From Owenia fusiformis (taxonomy: Eukaryota > Annelida > Polychaeta > Sabellida > Oweniidae), in contig CAIIXF020000006.1 of the NCBI GenBank assembly GCA_903813345.2, positions 34,944,436 to 35,008,435 of the forward strand: a DNA stretch of 64,000 nt, read 5' to 3'. The position numbers and the translations under genes were made by a program. Shown one piece after another: positions 7,182 to 50,232 of this stretch. The notes below the pieces were generated by a model. It searched no databases, had not been told where the DNA came from, and saw nothing but the letters and a program-made list of their open reading frames with translations. Numbering within the stretch: the first letter of the stretch is position 1; every line of letters begins with the position of its first letter.

Positions 7182-7299
7182 AAACACTGTTTGTTTTGAT
7201 TGCTAATTTATCTGCACTCATTGCGTTGAGAACGTCAATATTGTGGCAGACGCTCGACCAGAAAATTATTTGCAGAACAAGTCCTCCCTGACAATGCAT
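7182..7299 (-). CDS. Gene A exon 1: signal peptide
   Basis: The start codon is at 7299-7297 on the minus strand; the exon ends in phase 1 at donor TTT|GTGAGTAA. It encodes about 39 residues starting MHCQGGLVLQIIFW, a hydrophobic segment typical of a secretion signal. The matching gene B exon (45437-45554) has the same length and phase and near-identical sequence, which supports both starts. Copy A is the first exon of a tandem paralogue of gene B. Confidence 0.82.
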
Positions 7300-11599: not shown

Positions 11600-11622
11600 A
11601 TAGGTTATTGATGGTCGTGACG

Positions 11623-20765: not shown

Positions 20766-20971
20766 TTAAAGTTGTTCATCTATGTCAAGTGACAGTGACG
20801 TACATGAGGGCGGTTGTGCAGACCATTTCCCAGTGGACAGACATTGGACTTGCATAGATGCCCTGTTTGCCCTCCATCCATGGCAACGGTATGTGATAAT
20901 GGAACCCATAGAATAGTCCGTACCTTGTTTAATGACGTTTGGTGCCACCAAAGGGTCTTCACAATATACTT
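20766..20971 (-). CDS. Gene B last exon: CCP10 and stop
   Basis: Acceptor TATTTTCAG, entry phase 1. It encodes a four-cysteine sushi domain (YCEDPLV, TYRCHGW, VQCLSTGKW, PPSC), then TSLSLDIDEQL and TAA at 20768-20766. The short polar tail argues against a membrane anchor. Confidence 0.88.
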
Positions 20972-23900
20972 CTGAAAATAGATACAAAAAAAATACATAT
21001 AAATAAAACTAGTATACTCAGACAAGTCAAAGATTAATAAAGAGATAATATACACGTACTTGAGAGAACGTGTATGTAAATTGTAAAATTATGGAAAACA
21101 ATTTAACTTAGGTCCCTGAAAAATTAATTGAGTGTGAAGAGTAATCCCGTGGTTGCGTCAAGTACAAAGTCTCTTAAACATATTGTTAAACATGTCTCAT
21201 ACTCTAAATAACAACTAACCTTTCACGACAACATCCACAAAGTTAGCAGTGCTGTGGATAAAAGGGTTGTAACATCGATATCTTCCCACATCTGCTTCGC
21301 CAACAGAGGTCAAATAAAGTCTGTACTGAGAACCAGATTTCTGCCATTCTCCGGGTATTTCTATCTCTGAAGACGTCTGAATTGAGCTCTCGTAAAGGAA
21401 ATTGTCATCAGGCCCATTCGCATTTCGCACCTCGTTGAATAAAACATCGTGAGACTGAACGTGGTGTGGTATATGTGCATGTGACATCGCATACCCACTC
21501 TCGGCCATCAAATCGCCCTTTTTCCAGACGGGAGTTCCAAATTCTCTAAGATACAGACAGTCAAGTGTTATATTGGCACCAGGGAAGACATAGAGAGTTA
21601 AGTTTTCCTCCATGAGATGCGTTCCTTGGATCTCTTCAACTTTCACCTCTGGTCTGAAGAGCTCTAAACAAACAACAGTCATGGTTTGTAAGTAACATCT
21701 CTGAGTTTAACATCTCTAATAAAAATTACTCGATAGCCAAAAAGTATAAGACACTCCGTTCTATTGTGTTATATCAACGTCATAAACATCACCTTACCAT
21801 TCACAAAGTGACGGAATATCTGAGATGTTTAATAGAATACTGAAATGAAATATACAAGTGGACTATAGCTCCTTATTTGACAAGGCACACTCAAGATTGG
21901 TCTGATCCATTTTTGCTTCGGTACATTGACATTCTAATATGTACAGTCAACAAATGATATGACGGGCATTCCGTATCTTTAACCTCTATTCTCATGCTGG
22001 TCTATTCAAGACCAGCACTTGCACATAGAAGATTATAACTCCTCTGATACGCAAAATGTCAAAAAGTTTCCGTTTTGTGTTTTTAATATACGAGAGCCAA
22101 TTGGAAGAGAAGCACCGATACATGGACAAAAGCACAAACAAAATCAAAAGTGCATTAAACTATACACTAACCCCCCTATCACACAAAACTAGTTCTTACC
22201 CGTTCTTGCCAGTCCTACGAAAACGTCGTAAAACGGACTCAATCTGGCTGTGGTCGGGAAATATCTCTAAAATAATTAGCTACTTCGTTCATAAACAGTC
22301 TCCAATACGTCCATCTCATTCGCAGTTCGTTCAGGTCGTACCACGATCGTTGTGCAACGTCGTATAACGCGTCCCTTCGTCTAGAAGGTCATCATGACCT
22401 GATTACAGAACGGTTTATGGTCGCCTACGAATTTTGAATCGATTCAAAATTCTAGAATCACCTTCCCGTCTGAGAACGTTCATGAAGTTCGTAATTAGAC
22501 CTTAGAAAGTTGCAGCTACGTTCATTCCGTTCGCACACAGTTTAAAACCAGTTTTGAAGAACGCAGTGGCAACTTGTTTGGTGTGATAGCTATATTTTTG
22601 CTAACTCGTTCATAAGCAGTCTTTAATACGTTCTTACTCAGTTTAAACCCGTTTGCAATTGGTTCTGCCTCGTTCTCAATACGTCCTCAGACAGTTCAAC
22701 TCGTTGTAAAAACGTCCCTAGTAGGGTTAAAGTACGACGGTTTCGTTCGTAGTACGTCCAGCTCATCGTTAGTACGTTGTCACTCGTTCTAATTGTAGAA
22801 CGTGACGACATCGAGAACATTTTGAGCATGTTCTAAGTTCTAGAGGACCTACCCGTTCGAGTACGTTCGATGAAGTTTGTAAATAGACCCCAAACGATAC
22901 TAAGTACGTCCAGTCCGTTCGTATACAGTTAAAGCCCGTTTTCGAGAACGTAGTGAGAACTAGTTTGGTGTGATAGTAGGGTAAGCATTCAACTTCTCAA
23001 ATATGCCTGCTTTAAATTGTCAACTAGGCTAGAAATGAAATCTACAAAAACCAAAACACAAATTAATCCAGTGATTTAGGTTCTTCGATGCATGTCTACC
23101 CGAGCATCTACTAGCCAGGATCTTGTATTGTACCTCTCTTGGGTGCAGTGTAAACAGATCTCTTGTCCCTGTATGTCGAGTGTTCCTCACATGTTGGGAG
23201 ACCTATAATTGAAAAATATTGGCAACATATAGCTTTACTATATCCACAACTAATACTTGGTTTAATTATATGTGCTCTTATTATATTGAAAATGCAAAAT
23301 CTAGATGATAGTGGTAATGTGGTATCTACAATTTTCAGGGAAATGTGACATATTCAGTGCAGTGCGATTTCCAGGAAAATGTGACATATTGAGTGCAGTG
23401 CGATTTCCAGGAAAATGTGACATATTCAGTGCAGTGTGATTTTCAGGGAAATGTGACATAATCAGTGCAGTGCGATTTCCAGCAAATGTGACATATTAAG
23501 CGCAATGTGTATGAATAGTAATTACATACTCGTAGTATATTTTCATTTGCATTATATAAAGAAGGGAAATATAGACCATCGTATATATAGCAACCGCCCC
23601 TGTGTAGAATGTGTCAACGCCATGGACTCCATGGAGTACATCTTCATTAATTTTCTCATAAAATTCTGATAAACCATTGTAAGATTGCACATTGTAATTT
23701 CAGAAACCATTATTATAATAAACAATCGAAACTATATTCAGAAACAACATTATTCTACCTTGTTTGTGAGTCAACTTCTACGATGTATACTTACGTTCGG
23801 GACTCCACTGTCCATCTACACATGTTGCAGTCCCAGGTCCTTTTAGTATTTTGCCATTGTCGCATTGGTACTCAATTTGTTGATTTTGACCTACCCTCCT

Positions 23901-26900
23901 CACGTAAGACCTATATGCATATTTCCCATAAACCCCTACTAGAAACACCTTTCCGTTTTGGAGAAAACCCCTCCAAGGGCAATATACTACAATTGAAAAT
24001 AGACAATGCTAGTAAATTCACATTAGTGAACACTTAAAGTAATATGAAATATATTGGAATTCGTACAAGGAAAGACATTCATGTCGAGCGTGAAATTTTC
24101 TTCCATTTGATGCATTACTTGAATTTTTCTTATATTTGAACCAGGAAAGACATATAGCGTAATTTTTTCCTTCATTAGATGTATTCTTTGGATATGATCT
24201 CTTTAACTTTTACTTCTGACCATAAGAGCTCTAAACAGACAAGAGTCATGGTTTGTGCATTTGAGTAAAACATCTCTAGTAGAAATTATTCGAAAGCCAA
24301 AAAAGTACAAAACTACAGTCATATTTTGTGTTATTATGTCTATTCCATAAATACTGTGAATCAAAGAGAGTGCTCCTTTGTTATCTAAACTACCACAAAA
24401 TGTACCCATAAATTCAATTAACAACCCTTGGTTTCTTCCATACCTTACCATCCACAAAGTGATGGAATGTTGGAGATGTGCAACAGAAGACTGGAACGAA
24501 ATATACAAGTTGATTATAGCGCCATATTCAAACATGACCGTGCTCTATTCGAATTTCTCAACCAATCAGAATGCAGCATAGCCAATATAGAACGTTCTCT
24601 AATTCTCCATAGATGCACGACCATGCTCTATTCAATCTGCAATTTGCATTGTTTTGAGTGACGTCACATCTCAGCTGCACATCTAGGGCTCTGTCCGGGG
24701 ATAGCTGTTCTTTTTTACTCCCTCCGTAACTACTATAACTATATTTGATCAACACCCCATGTTTGCATACGACGTATAAAATCTAAAACGGGGAGTAAAA
24801 TAGAACAGCCCAAACAAATTCTAAAATTTTTCCGGTCGACTTCAGAATCTTGACAGCATGCGTATTCTTCCTTCATGCCCGTTCCACAGACATGGCTTTT
24901 ACTAATTTTTATGTTTGAATCGGAATAAATAATGATAGGCCATTCAATATGGTGAAATTCAGCACTCGTTGGACAGAATGTTAGTACAAATGCACTCACC
25001 TTCGGTTCGTGCTTTGTACAACATTCTGTCCAACTCGTGCTGAATTTCACCATATTGAATGGCCTATCATTATTTATTCCTTAATTAGACAATGCACACT
25101 CAAAATAGGTCTCCATCTCTTTTTGCTCCAGTACATTGACCCTCCAATATACAGTCAACAAATAATATGACAGGCATCCCGTATTTTTAACCTCTATTCT
25201 GATGCTTGTCTATACAGGAACACCATGTACATAGATGATTAACACTCCTCTGATCAGCATACTGTCAAAACGTTCCCGTTTTGTGTTTTTAATATTCGAA
25301 AACCACTGATACATGGAAAAAAGCACAAACAGAATCAAAAGTGCTGAAATTATATATAAGCATTTAACTTCTAAATATACCTACGTTAAATTGTTAACTA
25401 TGCTAGAAATAAAATCTAGTATCTACGGGACCACAACACAAACTGTCCCAGATTTAGCTTCTCTCTAGAGCATCTCTACACAAGCGCAACGATTTGCCAA
25501 TATCTTGTAATGTACCTCTCTTAGGTGCAGGATTAGCAGACCTCTTGCCCCTGTATGTCGAGATAGGCATTAAGCTATGGTAGTGCTCCTCACATGTTGG
25601 GAGACCTATAATTGATAATAAGTTTACCATACTTAAAGATAACAATAAGTGACGGTAATAATATAAGTATTAGTATGTTCACAATACGTAAAAATGCCAA
25701 ATCTGTATAGTAGTGTGGTGTCTGCGATTTCCAGGGGAAATAATGTGACATATTCAGTGCAGAACAGTACAGCAGTATATATGAACAGTGATCACATACA
25801 CCCAGTAAATATGCATTGCAATTAGCTCTGTATGGAATGTAATTGGTGATTTACTTTGAAATCGCTTTTTCAACTGAAGAAGATTATTGGAATGTGTCAA
25901 AGACTCAAAATCATTAAGTACATCTTTAGCCAAAATTTTTCTCAACGATTTTGATTAGGGATCCAACGATACAATAATTTAAAATTTGATACGAGCAAAG
26001 ATATTTACCCCAGCCTCCAGCTGCAGGGTAAAATATGAACGAAACAACCAATGTTACACTTACGTTCAGGACTCCACTGTCCATCTACACATGTTGCAGC
26101 CCCTGGTCCTTTTAATATTTTGCCACTGTCGCATTGATATTCAATCTGTTCATTTTGACCTACCCTCCTCACGTAAGGCCTGTATGCATATTTCCCAATA
26201 ACCCCTACTAGAAACACCTTTCCGTTTTGAAGGAAACCCCTCCATGGGCAATATACTACAATTGAAAATAGACAATGCTGATAGACAAGGCTTCATTTGA
26301 AGTAGAAGTTAGACAACCAAAAGTCCTAAACTTGAAGGCAAGTGGCAGGTTATCTATGAAACCATGATAATAATTTTTAGATGGGTAACGAATTTTCAGA
26401 TGTAGTTGCAATTCTGTTTTCTTGGAATTCTGGAATTGCCCTCATGTACCCTCTGCTGTAGCTTCAGTCTTTTTGCATTTTACCGGTTGTGAGTCAATTT
26501 CAAGCTTAAGTTGCAGTTTTTGAAGGCACGGGTAAGTCAGTTGGATAGCATATAGGATAAAATCATCAAATAAACTTACAAGGTTTGCAATATGGCATTC
26601 TCGACCCCATAGGCTTCCATTCTCCATATAAACACTGTACATATTTGTTCTCTTTCAGCTCATATCCCGCGTCACACCTGTACTTCGCCCGAGCACCATG
26701 ACGCACGCTATAGTACCTGGGTATACCATTCGGAATAGAGGTAGGTCTGTCTTGGCAAGATGCTGCAATAGTATAGTATTGTCAGGTTATTTTCGTAATC
26801 ATTGTGCAGCGAAGACAGTAAGGAATCCTCCCTTGGGCGACAGGCATGTATATCGATATATATATATATTAAAACTGGTCCTCCGTACTTAAATCTTAAA

Positions 26901-29900
26901 AGAACACAACCACCATATAAATTTGCATTGGCTCTTATGTGCCGCTATTTCGCTTTTTATTGGCCTATGATAATATCGTACATACAAACTCCACATACAC
27001 AATGACCCTTTGGGCAGCACCTCGGAGGTGTCCCGGACTTATGATCGGATCATAATCCTGGCATACAAAGCCATATATCATTAATATTCTGTAATCAACT
27101 TCTAAATCCCTCAGAGGTTAACGTTTTATATCAAATATTGTGCAGATGCCCCAGAGGCAAAATTCAATAATAGTCCAATGACATGATCTTAATCCCGGCA
27201 TTTAAAGCCATATCATTAATATTATTTTCTAATTCTTCTAAAATGGATTATTCCTCAGAGGTAACCTTATAATATAAAACAATCCTTATCTACAGATGCC
27301 CCGGAGGCAAAATTCAATAACATTACACAATGACCCTTTGGGCAGCACCTCGGAGGTGTCCCGGACTTATGATCGGATCATAATCCTGGCATACAAAGCC
27401 ATTATTATTATTATTATGTTTATTTTATCCATCAGTTTTGATGAGTACATAGTATGAGAGTACAATTTAGTACAACATTTGTACAATATTTTATGTAGTT
27501 TTGTAATTTACAGTTTTTATCTATATACAGTTAAGATGTCAGAAAGTTGCATTCATATATCATTAATATTCTGTAATCAACTTCTAAATCCCTCAGAGGT
27601 TAACGTTTTATATCAAATATATATCATATTTTCTAACTTCTAAAGTGGATTATTCCTCAGAGGTAAACGGTCATATAATATAAGAACAATATTTATCTAC
27701 AGATGCCCCGGAGGCAAAATTCAATAATAGTCCAATGATCTTAATCCTGGCATATGAATCCATATTTTGTTAATATTATATTATCAACTTCTAAAGTACA
27801 CATCCCTCGGAGGTAAACTTTTAATATTAAATATTACTTATGCACAGATGCCCCGATGGGCAAACTTAAATAATAGTTCAATTGATCTGATCATAATCCT
27901 GGCATACAAAACATTTTGTAAATATTATATTTTCAACTTCTAAAGTAGATTATTCCTCAGAGGTAAACTTTTAATATTAAACAATCCTTATCTACATATG
28001 CCCCGGAGGCAAAATTCAATAATAGTCCAATGATCTGATCATAATCCTGGCATATATTAAGATTCTATTAACTTCTAAAGTACGTGTTCTCCAGAGGTAA
28101 ACTTATAATACCAAATATTCCTTATCTCCAGATGCTCCTGAGGCAAAAACTCCATAATAGTCCATTATTGATTCATGGGACTTAATTCTTTGACAAATTT
28201 CAAAATAAAATCATTATTTAGCCTCGGAGGCAAATATCTCAAATCTAAATTATAATGTATAAATAGTAATCTTTTATAGCTCCACAAACGTCTCAGAGAC
28301 GAGTCTCGTCTGAAATTATAAATAATCAAATATATGGTCACTCCTTGCCCAAACATTAAACTCGTTCCATATGCCTCGGAGGCAAAGCTTTTTATCCAGC
28401 TTTTTATCTCAGTTATGAATTATTGTAAATAATTTACATTTTATATTCATGTGGTTTCGGAAACCTTGCTTACATACTCTGTATACAATTTCTTAGTATT
28501 ATATTTACAGTACTTATGCCCTGTAGGCTAATAATTGAATTCTTTGATGCCAACCTCGCGGCGACCCCTTTTGCAAAGTGCGAAAGGTACCTTGTACATT
28601 TTGTTTTTTATATACAAGGAGGTCCACCTACCCCTAAGATGAAATTGGCGTTTGTAGGATTTAAGAATTCGAAACACACAATTTACTTAAAACAAAACTA
28701 TTTCTAACTTTATATCAAAGTAAAAATACATTTGACAAAATATTTTAAAACAGTTAACCTTAAAGTTGTTTGGTAAATTTAGCAAATGCTGCCGTGTTAG
28801 CGTCACAAAGCCGAATGACTCAAAACCTATTTCCTAAACATAAATCACTCACAACTCATTCAATCAATACCACCGTTTGTCGTCACTTAAATAGAACAGA
28901 ACATACTCAAATATACACCCCCGTAACAAACTATAGAACACATTCTCCAAATCTGATATCAAAACAGTGTGAAGTACCTGTATTAAATAATTTTCAAACT
29001 TATTCGCTACGCTCAATCGTTAGAAAATATCATTAAAACTGGTCCTCCGTACTTAAATCTTAAAAGAACACAACCACCATATAAATTTGCATTGGCTCTT
29101 ATGTGCCGCTATTCCCGAAGAACAAAGATAAGGTAAGGTAAGAATAAGTTTAAAATCCCATTCAAATGAAGATAGTATATTCTTATTTAATATGAATAAC
29201 GCAATAAACTTAATTAAGTCACCTATTATAAACCAAGATTGATAACTTTTGTGCCTTTCTTGAATGTTACTCTCCACATAACCATCTATAGAACAATCAC
29301 TTTCCACCTCCTATGAGCCGAACAACCTACCGTTCACATCCACTGTTAGCACCTGTAGTAGCATCATCACTACGTTAACCATGTCAACCAAAGATGGTTG
29401 TTTCAACTCTTATATATTAGTACCCAAAAACATTTTTCTACAAGATGAGTAACACAATTTCTCCTCATACCTCAAAAACCTGCAAACCCCAAAACAACAA
29501 AATTTTAACCGTTCTGATCTCCTTGACACTAGCAGACGAATGACTCATTTTTAAAAAACAATATTCTTAATAATTTCATCTGTGATTGGAAATGCTTGAT
29601 TAGCTGATAGACGACGTAAACTACTTTCGTTATTCCATTTTGAAAACTTATATGCATAATTTTCTATCGTCTTTGGTTCTCCAGACTTCGCCACAAAACC
29701 AGACATTTTCGTCTGATAGATATTTAGTTTTTCATTGTCTCTACCGATTTGGGTCTTCTTCCTGCCATACCACACTGGCGTTAACTGCATCTGTGTCATT
29801 TATACCCTGAAAACGTACAAACAACATCGTTACACAATGAAACTACCATACATCAAACAACAACAACAGTTCAATGCTTTTAATAATATATTTTTTATGC

Positions 29901-32900
29901 AATAAATATGCTCCTGAAGCAACCAATTCTGAATATTCATATGCTATATCTCTGAGTGCCGGGCACTAAATAATCACCACCGGGTGGGAATTATATGTTT
30001 TTAATACAACTCTGGTATCTTTTTCATTCACGTATTGACCAGTATACAGAAGACTGCCACTGTGGAAAAACCATTTATACTTTCGCTTGCAACCATCAGC
30101 CTGAAATATTTGCAATCAATACTACAGGTGTAACAACATAATTTATTTTACCACACCAGTCCTGAGAAAACGAATCGACAGTCTCCGTACCTACACAGTT
30201 ATGCACATTAAGAATTAAATCTGTAACATTGCGTTCAATGTTGTCTGCGAATATGTCTAAAGTATACACTCCCCGTTTTGTATCTAAAAAGTTGAAGATA
30301 TTCCAGTATATACCCCCAGTCATTATAATTTATCATTTTGCTGATGGCTCAGCATTTCGGGTTAGTTCCCGCGGAATCCATTCAGGCTTCAAAACCTCGA
30401 TTCGCTGCAAACATATTCCACGAATATCAACGGCAAGTTTCTGAATTTCTTATATCATGCTACCCTTGTTTACTATATTCACTACACCAGTGTTGTCCGT
30501 GAATCAACAAACAATTCGACATTTTAAGTATCTAGACAAAGTAATCAACACCGCTTAAACTTTTTGTTCATAGAGCTTTTTGATTTCTAAGTTTCTGACC
30601 ATTTTTGATAACATACATAATTCTCTATATTCCACTACATATTCTCCACAAGCCTTACTTGATGCATCCGAATAAACAACTCTGGAGTGTTCAGGACACG
30701 TTTTAAAAAACTTTCCATTCAATCTCTCAAGATTATTTTCACTTGAAACACAATTATTGCTTGGCTTGATCAGATATCTTGATAAGACATCCCAGTATAA
30801 TCTAGGACAACTATTTTGTGAAACCCCCTTGTTTTGTGACTATATCACCTGTTGCACCCTGGCAGATTTTACTTTTCTAATTATGGAAGCCACAACCCTT
30901 GGAGTGATCACATAGCCTGTACTGTACGGAACTTTTTACGGTTTCACTTCCGGGATATAATTAATTTCCTTTTCAAATCCCGACCAAACCTTAGCCAAAC
31001 CAAACCAAAACGAGTATTGAGTGAACTTCCAGATAGAAACAAATCCAGATCGAATCAAATCGGACCTTATAGTATTTATAATTTTCTCAGACATTTAAGT
31101 CCACTATTTCCGGTCCTGATTGCATCATCCAAGAATATTAAAATCTGAATCCAAAAGCCCTCCAATGTTTGACCAAGTATCTGACTTTATACGGTGATAG
31201 GATTGACAACCTTAGAAACTTCAACTGTTTAATATATACAACCCTGTTCAAACAACCGTTCTTTATTTTCCTCTACAAATTTTTTAATTTTAAAATGCAA
31301 ATCTGTTGCTTTTTTATAATTCTAGGTCTTTGGTATGACTCAAACCGAATTTTCTAACCATTTTCAATAACATCAATTATGTAAAGATTAGCTCTTACTG
31401 ATTTCCAAAACGCTACATTTTCTTTCAATTTTCCTTTTACAGTTTGGTTCTTTTACTATTTTGATTACATATATAGTTCAGATGTATACTTAACTTCCGG
31501 TTATTGTTGCTACTTTGAGCAGATGTCTCTTTGACAATCTCTGGACCAACACCTAGTCCTGTAGCAGCAGAAACAAATGAACCTCTGAACCGCCGTCCTG
31601 TTGTAGTTCTGATTGTTCTGAAGGAACCACGCCTATCGAGACCTCCGCCTGCTGTAGATGACAAACCACCTCCGCCTCTGAAACTGACTTTATTTTTAGG
31701 TACTTTGTTCTGATATGTTGAACTGATGATTTATCTCACTTCAAGAATGAGCTTGACGTAATAGCTTCTTGTCATCGTCGCTGAATCTGCAGTTTCTTAA
31801 CGTTCATATTTTTCTACTACACACACTTATGGAGATTCATCAGCTATTTTAACCTATTCTATTTCATTAATTATTCAAAACCATACCTTCTGCCAGGACA
31901 CTCGCTTCGCCCTGCACATCTCGGTCTCCACCATCTTCTAGACATTTGGAAGTATTTTATCCAATATCTCAGAGTTGTATTCATACCGTTTCTCTCGTCT
32001 TTTCTTCTGTAACTTTGTTTCTGTTTCCAACTTCCTCGCCAGTTTTGAACCATCTTTGAACAATTCACGTTTTCTTCGTTCTCCATTCTGAGTCTCAGTT
32101 GCGTATTTTAGTATATAGCAAAAGTCTCAATTGCAAGTTTCAATAAATTTAGCAAATGCTGCCGTGTTAGCGTCACAAAGCCGAATGACTCAAAACCTAT
32201 TTCCTAAACATAAATCACTCACAACTCATTCAATCAATACCACCGTTTGTCGTCACTTAAATAGAACAGAACATACTCAAATATACACCCCCGTAACAAA
32301 CTATAGAACACATTCTCCAAATCTGATATCAAAACAGTGTGAAGTACCTGTATTAAATAATTTTCAAACTTATTCGCTACGCTCAATCGTTAGAAAATAT
32401 CATTATAGTTGCCTGACGAATTCGCTAATGGTGTTTTATTGCCCATTTAAAAGTTAAATCCACCACATATGAATTAAAATATTATAGTATAAAGATGTAA
32501 TTGGGATTTGTCGATTCCCTCTTGTATTGTATTGTATTGTATATATTGTATTGTATTGTATTGTACATCTTTATTGCCCATATTTTAGTGGAAATACAAG
32601 TTATTATGTTTTGACAAAATAAAATAGAAAATAAGTGTTATTCTTAGACAAATTACTCTGCCATCTTTATGAGCGAAATGTTAAATATTTGCATAGAAAA
32701 TAGTAGGGCGATTATAGAGAACTTGTATGTGAATTTGTAACATTATAATCCCTAGGGACTACTGTCCCCCACTCAATTTGTTTTTAAGGGCCCCAATTAC
32801 AACATTTTCTTCATATCTTTATACAAGTAAATACAACGAATGAGGAATCGAAAGTCCAGAGGACTGTATATTCCTACTCGTCTATATAGCACGTTCACGT

Positions 32901-35900
32901 ACACCTATAGCTTAACCCTAATGTGTCTCACATACCTGGGACACATTTGGGTAGACCAGGCCATGTTCCATTATAACAAGCCCTTGTAGAGGTACCATAT
33001 CCACTTAACACGTGTGTCTTCTTTTTACATTGGAGCTGAATTGTAGTATTGTGTGGTACCCAATCACCGGGTGCATGCTCTCCTAATACTGTACCATTTA
33101 TCATTATAGGCACCTTACATTGACCTAAAAGATTCAAAATTGCATATATTATTAATTAAATAAATGTTTTAAATACCTCTTCACTTAATGTACAAAGGTC
33201 CGGGGTCATTTTAAGGCTTGTCCCGCAAGTGACTCGAGTTCTTCTATGGGTATATAAATGGCTAAACGTTGAAAATTGCTATCCCCAATTCCCCATCTTC
33301 GTTCATTTGGCTCTCCTCGGTCGCAATGAAGACTGAGCTTGCAAAAATATGATATGCCTCCAATTTAGATTAGATCTTTGTTCGTAATCGTGGAATTTTC
33401 TTTGAATCTTCCATTTGAAGCGATGGCATGTCTAGATGGATAACATGGTTTTTCTGAATGTCAAACATTTTTGACGCAATGTCAGCACACAATGCTTTGC
33501 TGCTTTGAACATGTTCACTACGCAAGAATATTCAAGAAAAGTATAAAGGGATTCATTTTAGGGGTCACCGTGTACATCAAATAAAACTTTGAAGATGTTT
33601 GACCTTACTGTACATGGCTGTACTATAGAATGGTTGAGGACATAAGGATCTTTGTCTTACCCCAGCACGTTGGATTCGGATGTGTCCAATAGCCTCCTGC
33701 GTTTTCCCCTTTTCGTATTTCACATTTGGTGATGGTTGATATACCTTCGAAAGTGCTTCTTCCGAAACAACTAAAGACAAAACAACTTGCGTTTAATATT
33801 GATTGATTGTTGCCTTGGTCACCGATGTATCCATATTTTATATTGTTTGGTAACTTGGTTAGAAGAGATGGCGGTCTGGAGTCATTCCCAAAAACAAGAT
33901 AACGCGTTTGTCTACTCGTTTGCGGATCCAGGGGAAGGGGGGGGGGCACATGCCCCCTTGGCAGGGACCGAAAAGGGTTTGGGCCCAAAAATGTTGGCAC
34001 CGCCAAAAGATTTGTGGGCCTTTTGGGCATTACTTGGTCTTTTTGGACCTTTTCAGGCCAAAGATGAGATGTTCCCCCTCCCTCGATAGCTTCTGTATCC
34101 GCTTGTATTGCGAGGTCTCATCTTACATACTTACATAAACTTGATGACAGATTTATAAGTAGTTTGACGTCCCTCAAGGTGACCATTCCACAATGGAGGC
34201 AGAGAACCACAGTCCACCCCTGAATGATAAATTATATCATAAAACTTCGTATACAAAGAAATCCTGTGCTAGATATGGAAACACTGCAGGGCGCACCTTA
34301 CGAAATACTTCTATATAATAGACAAATCAGTAAGACAAGAAATACAAACCAGAAATCAAATCGAATTCACCACCTTGACACGGCAAAATGATTTTCCATC
34401 AAAAAAGGTAACATACATGTAAACGACTAGTAATTGTGACCTGAATCTACGTATACTCACGTTCACACTTCACATCCTCTCCTGTCCAACGCCCGGATGC
34501 TTGGCACTTCCGGGCAAATAACCCTTTAAGTGTGTAACCAATGTTACATTTGAATGTTATGACGGTTCTGTAGAAGAAGCCAGACCCGAACATGCTTCCA
34601 TTGTCTGGAGCTGTAAGCTTGGGGCATCTAACAGCTGGAAGAATACGAAAGACCAATACATGCAATTGACTATTCGCTATACCAAACGGGATATATAACA
34701 ATGATGATTATTATATTATTATGATTATATGGTATAGATAGAGAGAGATGGATAAAAAGATGGCAGGACGTGTGTTGGTAGGGCCAGAATATTATTGATA
34801 GAATCCTGGCTGTATACAAATATGTTAGACAGGAATTCGAATTTTATACCAATTTTCAATTTTTCAATTCAATATAAAAGAGATTTCAAGCAACGGGGAC
34901 TTTCTATTATTTTAATATCTAGATACATGTGATTAAGCTATGGAAGAACTTGAAGAATGAAGAATATGGGAGAAATGTGAATGGTCAAATAATATCTGTT
35001 CAGAAATTTGATCTTGCCTTCACATCTTGGGGTGGCTCCCGTCCACTCTCCATTGCTTCGACAGGTTCTCTTGGGCGTTCCTATAAGTCTATAGCCGCTA
35101 TTGCAATAGTATCTCACACCCCTTGGGAACATAAAGATGTTGCCGACACGTCTACCATTCGTAACTTCTCCCGGACGACCACAGCTTCTAGCTACAATGG
35201 AATCAAAGATGATAAGCTCGATACCCTTTGTATTCGTTTGACTTCACTTCTTAAAAGAGAGCTTCGTCTTCAGTAGTTTAACTAGACTATGCACGCAGGG
35301 TACAACCTGGACTTACTCCATACCTTTAGAATTAAATTGTGGGGGATCTATTCGTTCACTGTGAGTAAACTGTCCCAATATATTATATTGGCAATAAATC
35401 TAACATGAATTTATAAGTATGTCACTTTCCAACGATATGGTAGGCCAATTACTCAACTAAGAATTTATCCCTCCACATCGGTTTTCCAGATTTGATCAGA
35501 ACCCATAAATTACCTTTATTATTCCAACATTATTTGGTTTCTAGGCATTATACAATAAGACAAAATGTGATTTTGCCTATTGAGTAAACCAAAAGAAGTT
35601 GTGAGGCTACATACTGTATAGGTTAAGTGGTAATTTTTCCTAATCATTTGATTTGCCATGGGCTTTCAATTAGAAAGCCTATGGAATTGCCTTTTCCTAA
35701 TTTTTGCCAGGTTTGAAAAATTAAATGTCTGAAATATTATCTTCATAATGTTATCCAATGGGAAGTGTCTTGTTGTTAGGGCAATTAAAATTAGGAAAAT
35801 GATAAAATTTGACGATTAGGCAAATTAAAATTGTTATTTGGGTGCACAATAAAACGATGTCAATATAATATATATTTCTGTGTGTGGAGTCTTCTCTATG

Positions 35901-38900
35901 AATTGGTTAAATGATGAGGTCAACAAATCGATTAAAAAATAAACAATGAGTTAACAACACTAGAATGTTACTAGAGGGTTGAAAGGGGAACCAGAATCTA
36001 CGTTCATGCTAGACCAATGACTGTGCAATACGAAACATGCTTTGTGTTATTGCATCTCTGGACGATTTAAATAGATTAATAGATGTTCCTACATGTTGAG
36101 ACTAATTCTATTTATTAATATCCACAATATATATTTACAACTAGTAGGTAAAGGGTAAGAGTAACTACCACATACGTTTATTAGTCTCTAAGCTAAACAT
36201 ACGCGCGCATGTCATTTTCGGCCCAGCCCATTCGCCTTCATCTGTGCACATCGCCCGGGCAAAACCATCACTATAGTAACCATTATTGCACATGTAGGCC
36301 ACCTGGGCGCCAATAGGAAACACATTCGAATACTTCTTCCCATCGTGAATGGCATTAGTGACAACGGGGGGTTCCCCACATCGATCTGTGAAGAGAAAGA
36401 GAAAGACATTCAATATAATAAACAGATCTATGTCGGGTTGGAAAGTAAGGTAACGGGAACGGAAAGGGAAGTTTCACGTTCAGGTGCAGGCCCGTAGCCA
36501 GGGGGGGTTCGGGGGGTTCGGGCGAACCCCCCCCCCCCCCCTGGCCAAAATTTGTTTCAAAAACATGCAGTTTTTCACCTTTCTGAGCACTTTTTAAGAT
36601 ATTTTGGCCATTTTTGGACCTAAATTGTCACAAGTGAACCCCCCCTGGAATTTTTCAAAAAGTGAACCCCCCTTGGCAAATCCTGGCTACGGGCCTGAGG
36701 TGTACGTGTTTGAAGCAGTAAAACTGAGTTTTGTCCAAAGCGCTGTAATTACAAAATAAAATGTAAAGGATATAAACTTTAAAAAAACTTTAAAATTTTC
36801 TGCATGAAAAGATCGCATATACAGTTGAACTCTCACATTCACCGTTTAACTTCTTGGAGCATTTACACAAACAAGCTCCGAGCTCCAGGGAATATTGATT
36901 GTTAGAACCTAAATATACCGATCAACATAAATTATTCTGAATTCTCATTAAAACATCTACGTACCTGGTACTATTTTATCATCAATTTCACATCTAGGGG
37001 GTTTTCCACTCCACTTTTTGTCTCCTTGACAGATACGGATTGGCTGCCCATTTAACTTGAACCCCTCGTCACAGTGGTACTTTGCTTTTCCGCTGAATCT
37101 ATTGTTGGGAACTACCTCAATATGGCCGTTTTCAAAAGTTTCCAAAGGTTCACACCGCCTGGCTGAAGAAGAAAGAACACTTAATACAATATTTTTGAAT
37201 TTTCTCAAATATGTTTCTGGTGCAAAAGGCCGAATATTGCTATAAATTACAAACCATCCGTAGTCCTTTAAAAAATTCTCAAAGTTTAAGATTTTTGTGA
37301 ACCAATTGCAAGTGTTCTCTCCTTCAGGTAACATGTAGGTTCACATCATTCTTATGAGAAGGAGAATAATACCAAAACGTCGACAGGAATTCGATATGCA
37401 ACTGAAAAGCAAACCACAAAACAAATCACGGTTAGATGTCAGGATTTCAATTTATTCATCCGAATCCGTTCAACCCCAGTTTCACCTAATATTGTAGCCA
37501 AACCATTTGTTGTGTTTCCTCTGATGTGTTCGAGCGTTAACATCAGCTACCTCTAGTCAGATCGACTGACAAAACAACCTTTTTTGGGGGTTTTCGAGTT
37601 GGCCAAGGGGGCTTGAGCGCCGGCACGTTCGAGCTAGGCGATTGGGCGCCGTAACCTCGAGGTTGTGAGTTCGAGACGCGTGTGCTCCTTGTGTTTATTC
37701 ATTCATAGTATGATAGTTATCCTATTCAGCAAAACATGAAGGAATGACAAAGGTCGTGACATTCATGTGAAACAATTTGTCAGCTCGAATAGGCTATTTG
37801 ATAACACATAAGATTATTATTACACAAATTATGCTGTTAGTATTTCAGTTCGTTATGATTCAAATATACATGTATATGGCACTTGACAAAGTTTTCTATT
37901 GTCCTCATTTGTTTTTTTTAAAATTCAGAATCCGTTGTCTTTGATGATTTGATTTAAGAAGGCATACAGTGACGAAGCAATTGAAGAGTTGAAACGGGGG
38001 TTACGTCCGCCATCTGTGACAACGGAATCTGACGTTGTCGTTCAGGGTGTTCCATTGTGTTAATTCGAAGATTTACTTTTAAGAGAGGCTTCCCTATCGA
38101 AGACTTAAATACTTCTTACTTTTCGAAGTCAATGTCGATCGCAATCATGAAAATGCAACAAAACTTGGGTTAGATAATAAAGTAATTGTTTTCTTAATTG
38201 TGGCATAGATGCTTCCACCATGTTATCCGAAACAAATGAAGTGTAACAAATTGTCTTTGAAGTTTACCAGACCACACCGACCAAAATGACACTGGTTCCA
38301 ATAAAATAACTCTTTTATCGAACCGTTTTAATTAAGTGTCATAAGAATAAATGAGACCCCCGTAGATTGAACTCCTAAATCATTTGACAAAATAACACCT
38401 TCTATATTTCCCCGCTGCTTTAGCACTAATGGCGCTTGCGATTGGCGATATTACCAACGTTTCCACCAAATCGGATTATTTTATCAAAATAATGGTATTG
38501 ACATTGAACCCGAATGTGCAATCTATCTAAGTTGATACAAGCTCGATGTGATGTAGATTAAGTCCCTTGGGGCACCAGGGGTTAGCTCTATAGCATAACT
38601 AGGCGCGCATCTCAATCAGACCAACAGAAATCGTTGCAAGTAATCTCCGACATTGACTTTTTATTAATTCCGAAAAAGCAATAGCGAAATTGGAAAAGAT
38701 AAAACAAATAAATTGCTACAATAAAACTGGTTCAAAGATGTACTCATCCAAAATCAAATAACTAATAATTGGGGACTGGGTACCAGATAAAGCTATATTA
38801 TATTCGAAGGATTAGATAGTCAGAAATTGTGACTCGCGTAAGGGCCAAGATCGAGGATTCACCTTCCATAAACAATGAGATACAATTGATGTGTCTTTAT

Positions 38901-41900
38901 GAGAGGAGGTGGGCTATCTACTAGGGGGATGACATACCTAGGTTACGATAATATTTAGTTAATTACATAATAGGTTCTGATTCTGATAGCATATTGCTCT
39001 GGGCCCAGTTGTTCAGAACCATTATGAACTTAATTGCAATTAACTTAATTTTGGTCTAATTGCACTTAGTTAATTTCAATATTCAACTGGAGTGCTACCT
39101 GGTTCAGGGGTTTCTTCTAATGGACACAATGGGAAATATTCGACGTGGCTACTTGATTAGTTGACATCACATGACCTATTACTTCCAACGCCAACAACAA
39201 ACCCAAAGAGAAGTCTATCCGTCCCAAATTACACCACTGAGCCATTCCATGACTGAATCCAAGCTTTATGACATCCCGGGATCGCAAGGGCCTCGCCGAG
39301 CCTGCGTGCTGGGTATTTGAACCACTAAACACCATTTGTATTTCATATCAAAATTGAAAAACTCAGCCCCAAACACTATCAAAATCTGAAATTTAATTGA
39401 AGTGAGCAATCAATCGCACTATATCGGAAAGAGGAAAATAACATTTTGTTAAGTTGTTAACAGAATTAGTTGTCAGTATTCTCTCTCTAAATCGAAGAAA
39501 CAAGATAATAATCTCGACCATTACTGTATCTTTTGCGTGTTATTACATCACAGAAAATTACAACCGCTTGTTCCTCGATGACTGTCAAGCTGCAGCAATA
39601 CTCGCCCTCCAAATTGCAATTAGCATTTAAATCAGTGATTTGGGGTATTGAATACAGACATTAGATTTACAGAAATACAAATGACTCCTAAGGGTCTGAA
39701 TAAGTTGATCGATGGAACAATTACTTTATCTACCCACTAGATGCCTTTATTACGAAATAAAGAAGTTCGGCGTTGGATTCAAATTAATTCGCTTAAATAA
39801 CTAATCTCTAAATGTTGATTATTAAATGGACTAAAAATGACTGCTCCCAAAGGAACCATCTACAGTAACCCTAATGTGTCTCATCGCGCCTTTTAAATTG
39901 CAAATGTAAATTGGCTCTTGTAGAATGTAATTGTAAATGGTGCGTGTTCGAAACTTCTACATGGAATCAATTTTATGAAATATATTACTTACACAATTCT
40001 TATTTGAACTTATTATAAGACATATTTTTAAACATTATTTTGAAACATAATTAACGCATCAAAAATGACAGCATCGTTCTTTAAAGGGGGAATGTTGCCT
40101 AGGTTTCTCCCCCAGATAATCAGTTATCTCCCATTAAAATTGCTCATAGATAATATCTTATCAAACCTAAGACATCTTGAGAACAAATTGAGGGCACAGT
40201 ATCGCCAATATATTGAGAAAATCAATCGAGAACAACCATCAGAACAACCAACTGTCGGATAAAAGACAATTAGTCCAAAACAACATACAACTGTTTTGTC
40301 TATGTTATGAAACCCTTGAAAGTAATAAAGGTCCATGAGCAGTATGGCAAGTGATTTTAGACAGTCATATCCTTCACCATAAGTACTTTCTGGGTATAAA
40401 TACAGTGGTTTTTATTAGAACAATATGTTTTTTTTCAAGCGCAGTACCCATGATATTATTATCATTATGTCTTGGTTACCGCCATATTTGGCGAGCAATA
40501 CCTCATTGGTATATTCCGTATTTTACTTATTTTACACTCGAAGATAGAGCCAGAAACCCCTCCTTGGAGGAGCCCTGTTTTCTTTTAAGTGCTCAGGTAC
40601 ACCGACATACACACACTACTATACCTAACACCTAGAAATGCATGAGATACTTTGTTTGTCTAATTGAATTGTTTAATATATTTTTGAAAGTGCCTTACTA
40701 GCATCTAATTTTCAACCGATAAACCATTCATAAGGAACAGACAAATAAAAACAAATACATAATCATTACTAATAAGCCAAATGGGTTGCTCATGAACACC
40801 TAATGCAAGGTATACACCCTATGCAGACAGAGCCTGTGGAAAATATTGGGTGCGGCGCAAATGAGCGGAGGGTGCGGAGCTAACGGTCATTTTTGAATTT
40901 AAAATTGGGATATTTCTGAAACTAAGCCGTTTTGGGACTTCAAATATACCAAGATATGTGTATTTGACACCAAATACCAATAAAATTGTGAAAATAGTAG
41001 TGGAATTCATTTAATAGCGACGCAGTATGCCTTAAACATTTCCCAGACCTATATATTTTGAGACTATCCTTTTAATACTGCGTCCCCAGCATTCATAAAA
41101 AATGGTGTTCAAGATACACTACCCATGCAAATTATTTTTGCATCTTGGAAGCCAGGCAGTATCCGTGTGATTTTATAAAAATTCGGAAATGTTCTTCAGA
41201 TATGAGCCCCCTCTAAATATTGGGTGCGGAGCTACGTTTATGGAGCTGCTCCGCACCCAATATTTAGAGGGGGCTCATATCTGAAAAACATTCCGAATTT
41301 TTATAAAATCACACAGATACTGCCTGGATTCCAAGATGCAAAAATAATTTGTATAGATAGTGTACCTTGAACACCATTTTTTATGAATGCTGGGGACTCA
41401 GTATTAAAAGGATAATTTCAAAATATATAGGTCTGGGAAAGGTTTAAGGCACACTGCGTCGCTATAGAATGAATTGCGCTACTATTTTCACAATTGTATT
41501 GATATTTGGTGTCAAATACACATATCTTGGTATATTTGAAGTCCCAAAACGGCTTAGTTTCAGAAATATCCCAAATTTAAATTCAAAAATGACCGTTAGC
41601 TCCGCACCCTCCGCTCATTTGCTCCGCACCCAATATTTCCCACAGGCTCTGTCTGCATAGGGTGGTATAGTAGTGTGATACAGGTACACACCACAGGCTT
41701 TTAAACGAGTCGTGAACCACTCAGTGAAACACCCAGAATTTCATAACGCACAAACAAACTTGTCTGAACCGAGAATCGAACCCGGGGCCAAGCGATATTG
41801 GTAACCTTGACTCTCTCTCTGCCACTGAGCCATAGCGGGTGGACAGTAAACAACGATGATAGTAAACTATGAATCCAACTCTCTGAAATATTATGGATTA

Positions 41901-44900
41901 TGACCCCACCTTGTCACTTTTTTAAAAAATGTATGGCCTATTTTCTAAAAAGAGGATCTTGTTTTTCTCAATTTAAATATATCAAAAGTTTCTCCTACAC
42001 TATATTAATAACTTCTGAAAGGGGGATGTGTATTGAAATGCGATAAAGTTGAAACCACATTTCCCATGTTATTTTCCCATAGGGAAAGCTCATGCTATCC
42101 ATTGTTTTAAGCATGATTTTGGTCATCGAAAATTGATATCTTCAAAACTAGACTTTCAATACCATTCTACTTTTAAAGATGTTTTAGACCCTTGTTGAAT
42201 AATCTTTTCATGCAATAAAAATCAGAATAAGAAGATCCTCTTTTGAGCAAATAAGGCGTGGGGTTCTTATTTATAATTTTTCGAATTGTTCGATTGATAT
42301 TTTTATCATCATGGGGACGTCAATTGAAAGAAAACATATTGTTTTAATAAAAAACACTGTATTTATGACCAGAAAGTACCCATGGTGAAAGATATGGCCG
42401 CCTAAATTCACTTGCCATACTGCACATGGACCTTTAACTAAGTGTTAAGTGGAAAGATAAAAAGAAATTTTTAGCGGTTCAAAATTGTAATTTTTTATTC
42501 AATTTCATTTTGACTTTAATACTAGCCAGTAGTAAAGTAACATCTGTGAACAATCATCAAATTGATCATCAAATTGATCGTGTTATGAATTAGTTGAAGC
42601 CTCAAAGTTGGTAAGTAGATAGATCAACTTCTTATATATCTTTTAGAGCCAAAACATCAGGGGGTTACTCTAACTGTCTTTAATGAGTTTTGGGGCAATA
42701 AAAAGTTCAAGTGCCAAAAAGAGATATAACAAAGACATGGCACTAACATGCAAAATGGGTGTCGACTTTTGGCTTGCAACCGAAGATACCTCAAGAAAAG
42801 CCGGCGATTGCCGAAGATTTTATTTGCAAACGAAGTTGGCCGAGGGTACCACTAATGTGAAAAGGACGTCTCTAATTGGTCAAAAAGAGAGGCTCGGCAT
42901 TCTCCGTCAGATTGAATCGCCAAAATTCGGTCGTATGGCTCACCTTCGGTTGTATGGCTTACCTTCGACTGCATGGCCCAACCTCGATTGAATAGAAAAG
43001 ATGCTGTCCCCATGCAAAATATTATCACCTGCCATTGGGTTACAGATGCCGAACTCCGAATGCCGAACGAAACCGCAGAACACTATCCCGTCTTGTGCGG
43101 TGACATAAAAATGTTGTTTGTTATGGTTTGCTTGAAAGAACACTCATTTTCAAGGATAGGTTGATAACATATAGTATTCAAGAGCTGTAAAAATAGGGCC
43201 TAATAAGTTTTGCATTTACTTGGTCTGACGCAGCTCTTCCCACAGACGTCATCACACAGGCATCGCTTGTTGCGCCCTCTGCAATCGTTGTCTGAACGAC
43301 ATTTCTTCAGGCATGTTCTTTTAGCTGCTAGCTCGGGCTTTCGAGGACATTCAGAATTTACTGAAAATAACAAATTATCATGAGCAAATATGATTTATTT
43401 ATGGTGAGATGTTCAACTCGAACTCAAGTCAAATTGGACCTACATATGTAATTTTATACAGTTTCATTTATATGAAATATAATATAGTACTAATGTTCCT
43501 ATAACCAATTTTTAATGATTTTACATGGCTATTTTAGATTCCCCATTTATTGAGTATTAAACAAAGAAAACAAATTAATTAATTTTTGCATCTTTATCAT
43601 ATAAAGGGACAACCTGAAAGCACTGGAACATGCATGAATGAAATAGTGTATTTTCGTCAATAACCAAACATTTTAGAAAATGACTTTGGCAATATTAGAT
43701 TGCACAAACATAATATGCGCCTATACTACGTTTTTGAATTGCCCGCGGCGCAAGTATATTGCATGCCATTTAATAAGTTTCCCTCCTAGGTATCATGAAA
43801 AAGAACTATGTATGAGCCTATGTGTTGCAAATTACATGCTCACACGTTTTTAACAAAATCAGTTCATCCAAGCGCACTTAATCCGCTGATTACGCTGTGG
43901 CAACCGTGTCGGCTGCTCGCGTGTGTCAACTGCTAGTGCACCGCGGGAGTTCCACCAAATTATGTGCGTACAAAGTGCGCTATGATAAGCTATTTTTGTT
44001 GAAAACAGCATATAAGTTGCACTGCATGGCTTATTGTTCTTTTAGTGACACCTGGGGAGAAACCTCATTAAAAGATTACGCAAATCACTAGCACCGCGGG
44101 CATACAAAAATACAGTCCCAGACATTTCCCTACATAGCTAGATATATTTTTACTCCAACCAACTCATTAGAAACCTTTGCTTTTCAGGCCATCAAGATTT
44201 AATAATTAGGTTTCATAGTCAATGTTAAATCATGCGCTTTCAAGAGAAGCCCATGGTTAAATGCAAATGTAGACCCCAGACTAATTTGAAATCATTTGTT
44301 TAAAACATAATAACTATTCTATAAAAATATAAATACAATGAATCAAATCGTTTATTTTAGAGCAGTCTTAATAACATATAACACAAATACATAGTATAAT
44401 AGTAAAGAAAGGTTTAAAACATTGATTTCATATAAATGTCATTTCTAAAAAAATCGTCATGAATTAATAACTAAATTAATCGATTTTAAAATATTCGAAA
44501 TATTATTAATATTCAATTTAGCATTTTTAATTGCTTTTACTTTTATATTGCAAAAATATACGATCCATTTCTGAGTCCGACCAGACAATTTAAAGTAAGG
44601 TGCCACCCATTTTTGAAAAAGAAAAACAAACTTTTTTCTTAGCTTACTTCAATAAGAATGAATAACTGAATAACCTACTGAGAGAAAAACGCCACGTTTT
44701 GCTCCATACCAGTGTAAAGAATATGATACTTCGAACATCTTCGAAGGCATTGGCCGTACACAGAAAATCCATTTAGCAGATCTCAAGTCCCGAAATATAT
44801 GTTCTACCCAAGCTTAAATTTAGGATTACTGGTAGTGGAATCTACATTACACGTGTCCTAAACATGAAAACAAATGTTGAAGATAGGTCCACTGCAGCAA

Positions 44901-45554: not shown

Positions 45555-47972
45555 CTTGATTATTCGGTCTGCATGTGTAGATCTGACGTCAGAGTTGTCT
45601 CACATTTGACTGCTATGCTAGAGGTATCTTCTACGACAATAATTTCTGTATTCCGAGCGTCTGAAAGGAATAGTGTTCATAATTGACTTGCTTATTTCTT
45701 CATTGCCCACGGGTTACTTAAAGTGACAGTATGCCTTAAAAGTTAACACCATGCAAAGGCTAATTACGCGCTGAAGTAATTATATAGGGGTATACTTTAG
45801 AGCAATTAACATTAAAGCAGGACACAAATATTGATGACGTCACTAGCGTTGCCTAGTTAATTTTCCATCAATTTTTAGCACTTTTGTGTACAAATACATA
45901 TACTCGTGACATTGTAATGACGTGTTTAATGTCATATGTATCAAATGATCAAAACGTTAATAAACTGATAGTGTACTAGCATCCATTGCGTTCTGTTGAT
46001 TTTTTTCTGTTTCGATAAAGTTTTCCTTGGAATAATTCGAATTTAAGATTCGCAAATCGTAAATGACACTTCAAGAATAAATGATCGGGTGTCTTTGTAC
46101 ATTAATGTGTACACATTATCTCGTAAAAACGGATTCGGTTCTTGGTTCCCTTCGATTTTTCAAATCATGCATGCATTTTAGCATTTTTAAATGAATTTTA
46201 TTTTAATCATTTTGAATCACTGTAGAAACACTCAGAAAGCACAAGATAGATCTTAGATTTCAGTTTGTCGTTTTTCAATTTTTGATATTATATCCAAAAA
46301 TGCTTCTCACTTCTTTTAAACAGCTTATGATAGGCTACCAAATCAATCACAAATTTGTGAGACCGTTTCACTAGGAGTAAACTTATTATATCAATGTATC
46401 GATCCGATGAAATTCTTGAGTTTGACCCCCTTTAATTCACGCCATCTCCACCACTTCGCAAAGCAAATCAGCGGCAAGAAAATTTATAGATACGATAAAT
46501 AAAAAATGACAGTTTTACATCATATGTTACTTACTATTACAAGTCAATGGAAATCGTTTATGCCTCAAACATATTTTACGCTAAGTTTGTTCCGGAGTTA
46601 TCAAACCAGGGGAAATATATTTTGACAAAGCTATATTTGAGACCAGCAAGGCCCTTGGATTAAATATATGTTCCCAGATAAAGGTTTTGATTTTTATATC
46701 TGCAATAAACATACAAAATTACATCTTGAAGTGTGGTTTTGAAATATACATATCCTCAGAGTATTTTGTGGGTGCAAACTTCTTATTTTCACAATTCAAA
46801 ATGTCAAAATATCACGCCTATTTTCATGACTGTTTTGTCATTTTTTCTAGTCGGCGGAGGACATGCAAGCCTATTATTAAAAGTCCTGAAATTTTTATTC
46901 TAATTCATTAGATATTTGAGATACAACAGCGAAAATTCTACATTTTGTTCTCAAATATTTTATGAATTAGAATAAAATTGCAGGATTTATGGAACAACTC
47001 TCGTACATAAGCTTACTGCATTCATTAATATACTGCTCATTGTATCATTATTGTTCTTAAAAACATACTTTAGTTACGTGAGAACTTGAAAATAAGTTTA
47101 TGTTAATTTACAAATATCAGACTTTTTACTTTATTATTTTGATTTTATCAAATTATTATTTTATAGAGATTTTCTCTTTTAAGACTAGTTGAGACGGTGT
47201 AAACGAAATCAGATGTATATTATATCTTAAAATCACACCATTTTTTCTTGAAATATCCAAGTCAGTATGTATTTCATTCTAGTTACAGATTCCGTCTGAA
47301 TATTTACGCCATTAAATTAACATACCTTTACTTGTAGTTCTATTCAGAGGTGTTGTTTGTTTTTCAGTTGTGGTCTCATATCCTATTGCTATCTTCAGAT
47401 TCGCAATATTAAAAAAGAAAAACTGTCGAAATTAATTTCACAAGCCAAGAATCTTTGTGGAAAGTTATCCGTCAATATGGTAATCCAATTTAGAGGCCGC
47501 TTTGTGTAGGCTTCCAGAAAAGCGACTGTTTGCATCGTTGTCTCGGACTCTTGGCTTTTTATTTGAAGCTATTTTCAAACGAGAGTGATCAATAAAAACG
47601 AAATGTGTTAATGAATACCTTTTGTGTTTTTGAGCATTGCTCCATTGTGATACAACTTATTTCATAAAATATAATACTATAGAATGAAATATTTTTGATA
47701 ATCTTCAAAGAATTGACCTAATTTTGAGATGAATACGATTTTCTCTTAAATACTGCTCTGTTGATCATATTCTCTCAATCATGGCAAAGTCACTAGTTTT
47801 GTGTTCCTGATCCTTTTCTGCTGGTTCATTTGGTTAAAGTTTATAGATCTTGGGGCATTGTAAGCGATGTCGATGAGCATGGTGTTACTGTAGACATGAC
47901 TTGACATTAATGCATATTATTGAAATGAAAGACGATTTCCTATTTATGTCACAACCAATATAATCTCCAACC

Positions 47973-49993: not shown

Positions 49994-50232
49994 ATGCCGA
50001 ATAGGTGTGTAGTGGGGAGCTGTAGCAACGTTCCCCGAGAGGGGGTTTCGTTGTTAATATGGCCAAAAGACCCCAAGATGTCCCGATTGTGGTGTAGCTT
50101 TGTGAAAAATACAAGGCGGGATTTCACTCCCAGTGAGAAAAGCAGAGTTTGCTCTGCTCATTTCAACCCAGATTGTTTCGATGTAAATGAGACGAAAAAT
50201 GCCATACTCGTATCGATGGGACAGAAACCCAT
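49994..50232 (+). CDS. THAP gene exon 1: C2CH zinc finger
   Basis: ATG at 49994; donor CCCAT|GTAAGTAAG, leaving phase 2. Residues C5-x4-C10-x42-C53-x2-H56 plus conserved W33, F36, F44-P46 and F57 fit THAP. The next exon supplies the C-terminal AVPT box. Confidence 0.92.

Follow-up and report, generated by a model that had tools for sequence, protein, structure and literature searches.

LEV-9 of C. elegans is a secreted protein with eight CCPs and one WAP domain that is needed to cluster levamisole-sensitive acetylcholine receptors; it is activated by C-terminal cleavage, and its WAP domain is dispensable for clustering (PMC9083331). The Hig-anchoring scaffold protein of Drosophila, Hasp, consists of one WAP domain followed by up to 17 CCPs and anchors Hig (PMC9083331), which itself has five CCPs and one Ig domain (PMC9083331, PMC4411065). 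Both Hig and Hasp are processed and are found mostly in cholinergic synaptic clefts (PMC9083331); the synaptic roles of the two fly proteins are also described in PMC8505678 and PMC13226747. Leafhopper Hig, which has been divided into the stretches CCP1, IG and CCP2, restricts infection and can bind a protein of a rhabdovirus (PMC7180231). Its CCP2 stretch covers residues 396-631 (PMC7180231), a length of 236 residues that would correspond to about four CCPs. Mosquito Hig binds flaviviruses and has an antiviral role (PMC4411065). Here and below, the descriptions of these proteins follow excerpts of the cited papers.

We analysed a window of 64,000 nucleotides from the annelid Owenia fusiformis (contig CAIIXF020000006.1, here C6). 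The reading frames of two adjacent genes, gene 1 and gene 2, are intact. Each opens with a signal-like leader and a WAP domain, continues with eight CCPs and a linker bearing a furin-type site, and closes with an Ig-like domain and one more CCP; gene 1 has an additional CCP-linker unit. As in LEV-9 and Hasp, one N-terminal WAP domain precedes a CCP array in gene 1; Hasp is secreted and processed, as the Owenia proteins may be. Gene 2 resembles LEV-9 in having its WAP domain and eight CCPs ahead of the furin-type site, LEV-9 being cleaved C-terminally. With Hig, gene 1 shares the order CCP-Ig-CCP, in which its Ig is a weak match.

In contrast to LEV-9 and Hasp, both Owenia genes contain an Ig-like exon. 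LEV-9 is described in the excerpts without an Ig domain and, in this comparison of architectures, has two CCPs fewer than gene 1, where CCP8 is followed by a ninth copy and the Ig by a tenth. Hasp is described there with as many as 17 CCPs and without an Ig. Hig, as described in the excerpts, differs in lacking a WAP domain and in having five CCPs, the majority of which seem to follow the Ig, whereas the Owenia genes have a WAP domain, 10 CCPs (nine in gene 2) and an Ig next to last, followed by a single CCP. Since the Ig is extra for LEV-9 and Hasp, and the WAP domain and the number of CCPs differ from Hig, gene 1 is not a plain member of either group. In architecture, it would combine the N-terminal half of LEV-9 and Hasp with the CCP-Ig-CCP order of Hig. 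No description of a WAP-CCP-Ig-CCP combination in one protein was found among the open-licence papers listed, which are a part of the literature. An earlier, sequence-only reading of this DNA knew of no named protein with this domain order. The exact order was indeed not found, but LEV-9, Hasp and Hig come close to it in the excerpts; hence, the architecture is close to known proteins, and its combination in one chain is new among the descriptions found.

Exon structure of gene 1

Six-frame reading, a listing of splice sites and a splice model yielded 16 minus-strand exons for gene 1, which join in a single frame from the ATG at 45554 to the last coding base at 20769, followed by a TAA stop at 20768-20766 (Table 1). 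This splice model agrees with the sixteen exons in one frame, at 20766-45554, of the sequence-only reading. The length of 924 residues given there was not reproduced, as the splice choice made here gives a joined protein of 915 aa. The exons encode, in order, a signal-like start, WAP, CCP1-7, CCP8-linker, CCP9-linker, the Ig-like domain and CCP10. All 15 introns end in AG, and 14 start with GT; the remaining one, after CCP3, starts with GC (donor at 35016-35017), and its equivalent in the paralogue starts with GT. Phase 1 is found at 14 of the 15 junctions, the exception being the phase 2 junction inside CCP5, which is split over two exons.

Table 1. Positions in the window of the exons of gene 1, the exons of gene 2 that lie in the window, the Ig remnant and the upstream elements.
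Feature	Position	Strand	Evidence
Gene 1 exon 1, 39 aa, with start codon and hydrophobic, signal-like segment	45437-45554	-	Splice model; 87% identical in paralogue
Gene 1 exon 2, WAP, 8 cysteines	43220-43360	-	Pfam PF00095 E 3.1e-7, exon alone; 96% identical in paralogue
Gene 1 exon 3, CCP1	36965-37162	-	Splice model, Pfam
Gene 1 exon 4, CCP2	36203-36385	-	Splice model, cysteine count
Gene 1 exon 5, CCP3, followed by GC-AG intron	35018-35191	-	Splice model, paralogue comparison
Gene 1 exon 6, CCP4	34461-34634	-	Splice model, cysteine count
Gene 1 exon 7, CCP5 first part	34135-34219	-	Splice model, paralogue match
Gene 1 exon 8, CCP5 second part	33661-33770	-	Splice model, paralogue match
Gene 1 exon 9, CCP6	32936-33124	-	Splice model, cysteine count
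Gene 1 exon 10, CCP7	26580-26762	-	Splice model, cysteine count
Gene 1 exon 11, CCP8 (cysteines 1-3)	26064-26255	-	Sushi E 1.4e-5 with linker start
Gene 1 exon 12, last CCP8 cysteine and linker with RGKR	25516-25605	-	HSLMPISTYRGKRS identical in paralogue
Gene 1 exon 13, CCP9, copy of CCP8	23795-23986	-	92% DNA identity, 23786-24010 vs 26055-26279
Gene 1 exon 14, last CCP9 cysteine and second linker with RDKR	23134-23202	-	Splice model
Gene 1 exon 15, Ig-like	21220-21663	-	Ig_3 E 0.011, exon alone, under cut-off; structure-profile matches
Gene 1 exon 16, CCP10, C-terminus and stop	20766-20971	-	Splice model; Sushi E 2.4e-5
Dead Ig remnant (5' part of Ig exon)	24130-24313	-	76% identical to 21568-21752; frames broken
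Gene 2 exon 1	7182-7299	-	Paralogue comparison
Gene 2 exon 2, WAP	4569-4709	-	Paralogue comparison
Non-coding element, 1.84 kb upstream of gene 1 start	47397-47502	-	75% identical to 9195-9290
Copy of non-coding element, 1.90 kb upstream of gene 2 start	9195-9290	-	75% identical to 47397-47502

Domains of the encoded protein

The 52 cysteines of the gene 1 protein are distributed over the WAP domain (8), the ten CCPs (40), the Ig (2) and the leader (2), so that the domain reading leaves no remainder. In both CCP8 and CCP9, the fourth cysteine is encoded by the linker exon. A Pfam search with the joined protein exceeded the cut-off for Sushi (E 1.5e-59, in 8 stretches for the 10 CCPs assigned) and for WAP (E 1.3e-5), and gave no Ig hit up to an E of 1. 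When the two parts of CCP5 were joined and scanned alone, they scored 18.3 bits, just under the Sushi cut-off of 20.7. Matches to solved structures were CCP proteins in the best 60 of 104 cases, a generic similarity.

The Ig exon of gene 1 alone matched Ig_3 with 16.6 bits (E 0.011) and the joined paralogue with 18.8 bits (E 0.0024), against a Pfam cut-off of 30. A two-sequence profile of this exon gave 257 matches among solved structures at E up to 10, the best with E 0.0014. The best 60 of these 257 comprised 59 antibodies or other Ig proteins and one protein of another kind (PARP14); most matches span the second half of the exon only. The exon also contains the motif DxGxYxC, a hallmark of Ig domains. 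Because the Pfam score is below the cut-off and the structure-profile matches are weak, we label the domain Ig-like rather than Ig. The domain of exon 15 is probably Ig-like, and it is the weakest item of the domain list. The domain order proposed in the sequence-only reading was recovered, with the Ig as a weak match below the cut-off.

The 15-residue hydropathy maximum of the gene 1 protein is located at residues 7-21, in the leader. Judged by hydropathy, none of the top four hydrophobic windows of the gene 1 and gene 2 proteins is C-terminal, and one CCP8 stretch of the gene 2 protein is more hydrophobic than its leader. Secretion, as suggested earlier, would be a likely fate.

The tandem paralogue

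Gene 2 lies to the left of gene 1 on the same strand; its start is in the window, and its end about 26 kb beyond the left edge. It has 14 exons encoding 806 aa, in the same order and with the same phases as in gene 1, which confirms the tandem paralogue noticed in the earlier reading. The 12 exons after the first two lie left of the window, and the last coding base is C6:34918055. Gene 2 has nine CCPs in all, with a single CCP8-linker unit; its domains would use 48 of its 49 cysteines, leaving one extra. Since the paralogue keeps exon order and phases, a chance origin of the gene 1 model is untenable.

The two proteins are 74% identical over 801 aligned residues. With a dN of 0.157 and a dS of 1.126 (dN/dS 0.14), their divergence is under purifying selection. 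DNA matches between the two genes at E up to 1e-8 included 13 of the 14 exons, the missing one being the second part of CCP5. Four matches fell outside the exons: a repeat at 36484-36701, a dispersed repeat at 42061-42146, the upstream element described below and a 40-base piece.

The gaps between exons differ in length. Between CCP6 and CCP7 there are 6,173 bases in gene 1 vs 196 in gene 2, and between linker and Ig 1,470 bases in gene 1 vs 6,262 in gene 2. The WAP-CCP1 intron, of 6.1 kb in gene 1 and 10.5 kb in gene 2, is the sole gap exceeding 3 kb in both, and the signal-WAP gap measures 2.1 and 2.5 kb, respectively.

Synonymous divergence between the copies was 0.24 (0.12-0.44, 100 bootstraps) in exons 1-2, compared with 1.36 (1.09-1.77) outside these exons, and the 60-base flanks of exons 1-2 are 25-48% identical in ungapped comparison. 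The low value may reflect exon-sized gene conversion or a constraint on the nucleotide sequence.

Internal duplication in gene 1

CCP9 of gene 1 is a 92% copy of CCP8, and the likeness also covers the linker, two pieces of intronic sequence and, in the Ig exon, its 5' part. The blocks of the first unit (26055-26279, 25357-25762, 25078-25354, 24442-24528 and 24130-24313) have their partners in the second unit at 23786-24010, 22982-23362, 21870-22164, 21791-21877 and 21568-21752, respectively. As read from the sequence, the extra CCP-linker unit of gene 1 arose by internal tandem duplication, of which a dead, truncated Ig remnant is left. Gene 2 has a single CCP8-linker unit, so the doubled unit is most simply a secondary event in gene 1. 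The protein could contain the CCP8 unit together with the CCP9 unit, or the two could be alternatives.

Linkers and furin-type sites

All three linkers, two in gene 1 and one in gene 2, hold a furin-type motif, RGKR or RDKR. The stretch HSLMPISTYRGKRS is identical in the gene 2 linker and the first linker of gene 1; the second linker of gene 1 has lost part of it and kept RDKR. Exactly eight CCPs precede RGKR in gene 2. The pattern RX[KR]R occurs three times in gene 1 (shuffle mean 0.56, P 0.02) and twice in gene 2 (shuffle mean 0.33, P 0.045), with 5,000 shuffles each. One occurrence per gene falls within the WAP core, an unlikely place for cleavage, and the linkers hold the other two in gene 1 and the other one in gene 2. 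Because every linker has a furin-type site, these short motifs suggest that cleavage by a convertase may detach the Ig part from WAP-CCP8.

Genome-wide searches

The genome search for WAP domains gave 37 matches (all 44 candidates scored), and that for CCPs at least 150 (150 of 981 candidates scored). Read by eye, the matches listed contained a WAP domain with a CCP within 20 kb only in the two C6 genes; the next closest WAP-CCP pair among them is 42 kb apart, on C3. When 875 residues of the gene 1 protein were used as query, its WAP part matched the two genes only, and further CCP arrays were matched by its CCP part at 26-38% identity (52 of 376 candidates scored). The Ig exon was found at four places (4 of 4 candidates scored), convincingly only in gene 1 and gene 2. 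The third match, with three stops and E 0.2, was rejected, and the fourth (E 0.44) is the dead remnant in gene 1.

No larger cluster of WAP-CCP-Ig genes than the pair of gene 1 and gene 2 was present among the matches listed. Of the small, evolving cluster envisaged in the sequence-only reading, the evolution is borne out by one event, the internal tandem duplication, and the cluster reduces, among these matches, to a pair. Exons of ligand-gated channels gave at least 156 matches (150 of 230 candidates scored); with so many of them, possible receptors are present in the genome, which is not specific.

Non-coding elements and repeats

A non-coding element of about 106 bases lies upstream of both genes (Table 1), and a genome search with it matched these two places only. 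It is a candidate promoter, enhancer or 5' UTR exon. The stretch at 42061-42146, in the WAP-CCP1 intron, was rejected as a regulatory element; it is a dispersed repeat with at least 41 matches (40 of 2,239 candidates scored).

Several other features were observed. In the long WAP-CCP1 intron of gene 2, a reading frame at 440-2464 (minus strand) is of retroelement type: its endonuclease domain exceeds the cut-off, and its partial match to reverse transcriptase stays below it. An open stretch at 49994-50233 (plus strand) has a THAP zinc-finger domain (E 1.2e-10). A direct repeat with 1.58-kb spacing occupies 10043-12824, between the two genes, with 300-nt stretches that are 100% and 93% identical. 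The CCP6-CCP7 intron of gene 1 (6.2 kb vs 196 bp in gene 2) holds identical 262-nt direct repeats, 3.4 kb apart, at 28774-29035 and 32144-32405. Tandem arrays are located in gene 1 introns at 23331-23504 (period 36 bases) and 27621-28055 (period 150), and elsewhere at 53382-54163 (period 158 bases) and 59085-59775 (period 135).

Discussion

The architecture of gene 1 and gene 2 suggests that their product could well be a secreted, convertase-cut synaptic scaffold of the LEV-9/Hasp type with a Hig-like tail. The WAP-CCP-Ig protein would be secreted, and a proprotein convertase would cut its linker. The WAP-CCP1-8 product would then be a LEV-9/Hasp-like extracellular scaffold that holds nicotinic receptors at synapses, and the Ig-CCP product, or the uncut chain, would be a Hig-like part of the matrix, captured or carried by the scaffold. 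This reading is supported by the domain order, the cysteines, the eight CCPs before RGKR, the conserved HSLMPISTYRGKRS and the low dN/dS. It is also supported by the genome searches, in which only the two C6 WAP domains had a nearby CCP among the matches listed and the Ig exon was convincing in two genes only. WAP-CCP proteins may have several independent origins. CCPs and WAP domains also occur in immune and matrix proteins, which counts against a synaptic role. Further points against the reading are the Ig score under the Pfam cut-off, the dispensable WAP domain of LEV-9, the single CCP behind the Ig where Hig would have about four, the shortness of the furin motifs and, in gene 2, the CCP8 stretch that exceeds the leader in hydropathy.

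One alternative, which we regard as possible but rather unlikely, is an adhesion or structural matrix protein located away from synapses, in cuticle, tube, epithelium or basement membrane. Invertebrate matrix proteins include some that combine CCP arrays with WAP and Ig modules, and our analysis found no link from either gene to nerve. Against this, the closest named architectures in the literature found, as described in the excerpts, are synaptic.

The sequence-only reading had offered a role in defence. A secreted innate-defence protein, whose WAP domain would inhibit proteases or kill microbes and whose CCPs would bind microbes or complement, appears improbable. WAP domains do occur in antimicrobial proteins. 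The vertebrate complement regulators CR1, CR2 and factor H share the CCP array and provided the best matches to solved structures, among 60 of 104, but this likeness is that of the generic CCP module, and to our knowledge these regulators have neither a WAP nor an Ig domain. The one link to defence is the virus binding and antiviral role of insect Hig, which in the excerpts is itself neuronal. The case is weakened further by the purifying selection between gene 1 and gene 2, by the small number of copies, two such genes among the matches listed, and by the site of action of the closest named proteins, which is the cholinergic synapse; specific support for a defence role was not obtained.

It is highly improbable that two neighbouring genes (WAP-CCP1-7 and CCP8-linker-Ig-CCP) were read as one across the long introns of 6.1 and 6.2 kb, since gene 2 keeps all parts in order, with CCP6-CCP7 196 bp and CCP7-CCP8 279 bp apart, since a long gap in one gene corresponds to a short one in the other, and since the CCP8 exon of gene 1 begins in phase 1 and has its fourth cysteine in the next exon.

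We therefore return to the convertase-cut synaptic scaffold with a Hig-like tail. A bolder version, which we put forward with considerable doubt, is that one furin-cleavable precursor supplies both partners of the synaptic-cleft matrix, for which flies use two genes: a WAP-CCP8 scaffold resembling Hasp and LEV-9, and an Ig-CCP ligand resembling Hig. Such a fusion, if true, would predict that Hasp and Hig are in direct contact, and the C-terminal cleavage of LEV-9 would be a trace of an ancestral precursor. The locus also cautions that WAP, CCP and Ig modules alone do not equal immunity. If the scaffold reading is true, the receptor-clustering system of worm muscle and fly brain would also exist, in combined form, in another invertebrate, and would offer a testable model for how scaffold and Ig partner became two proteins and for why LEV-9 needs cleavage.
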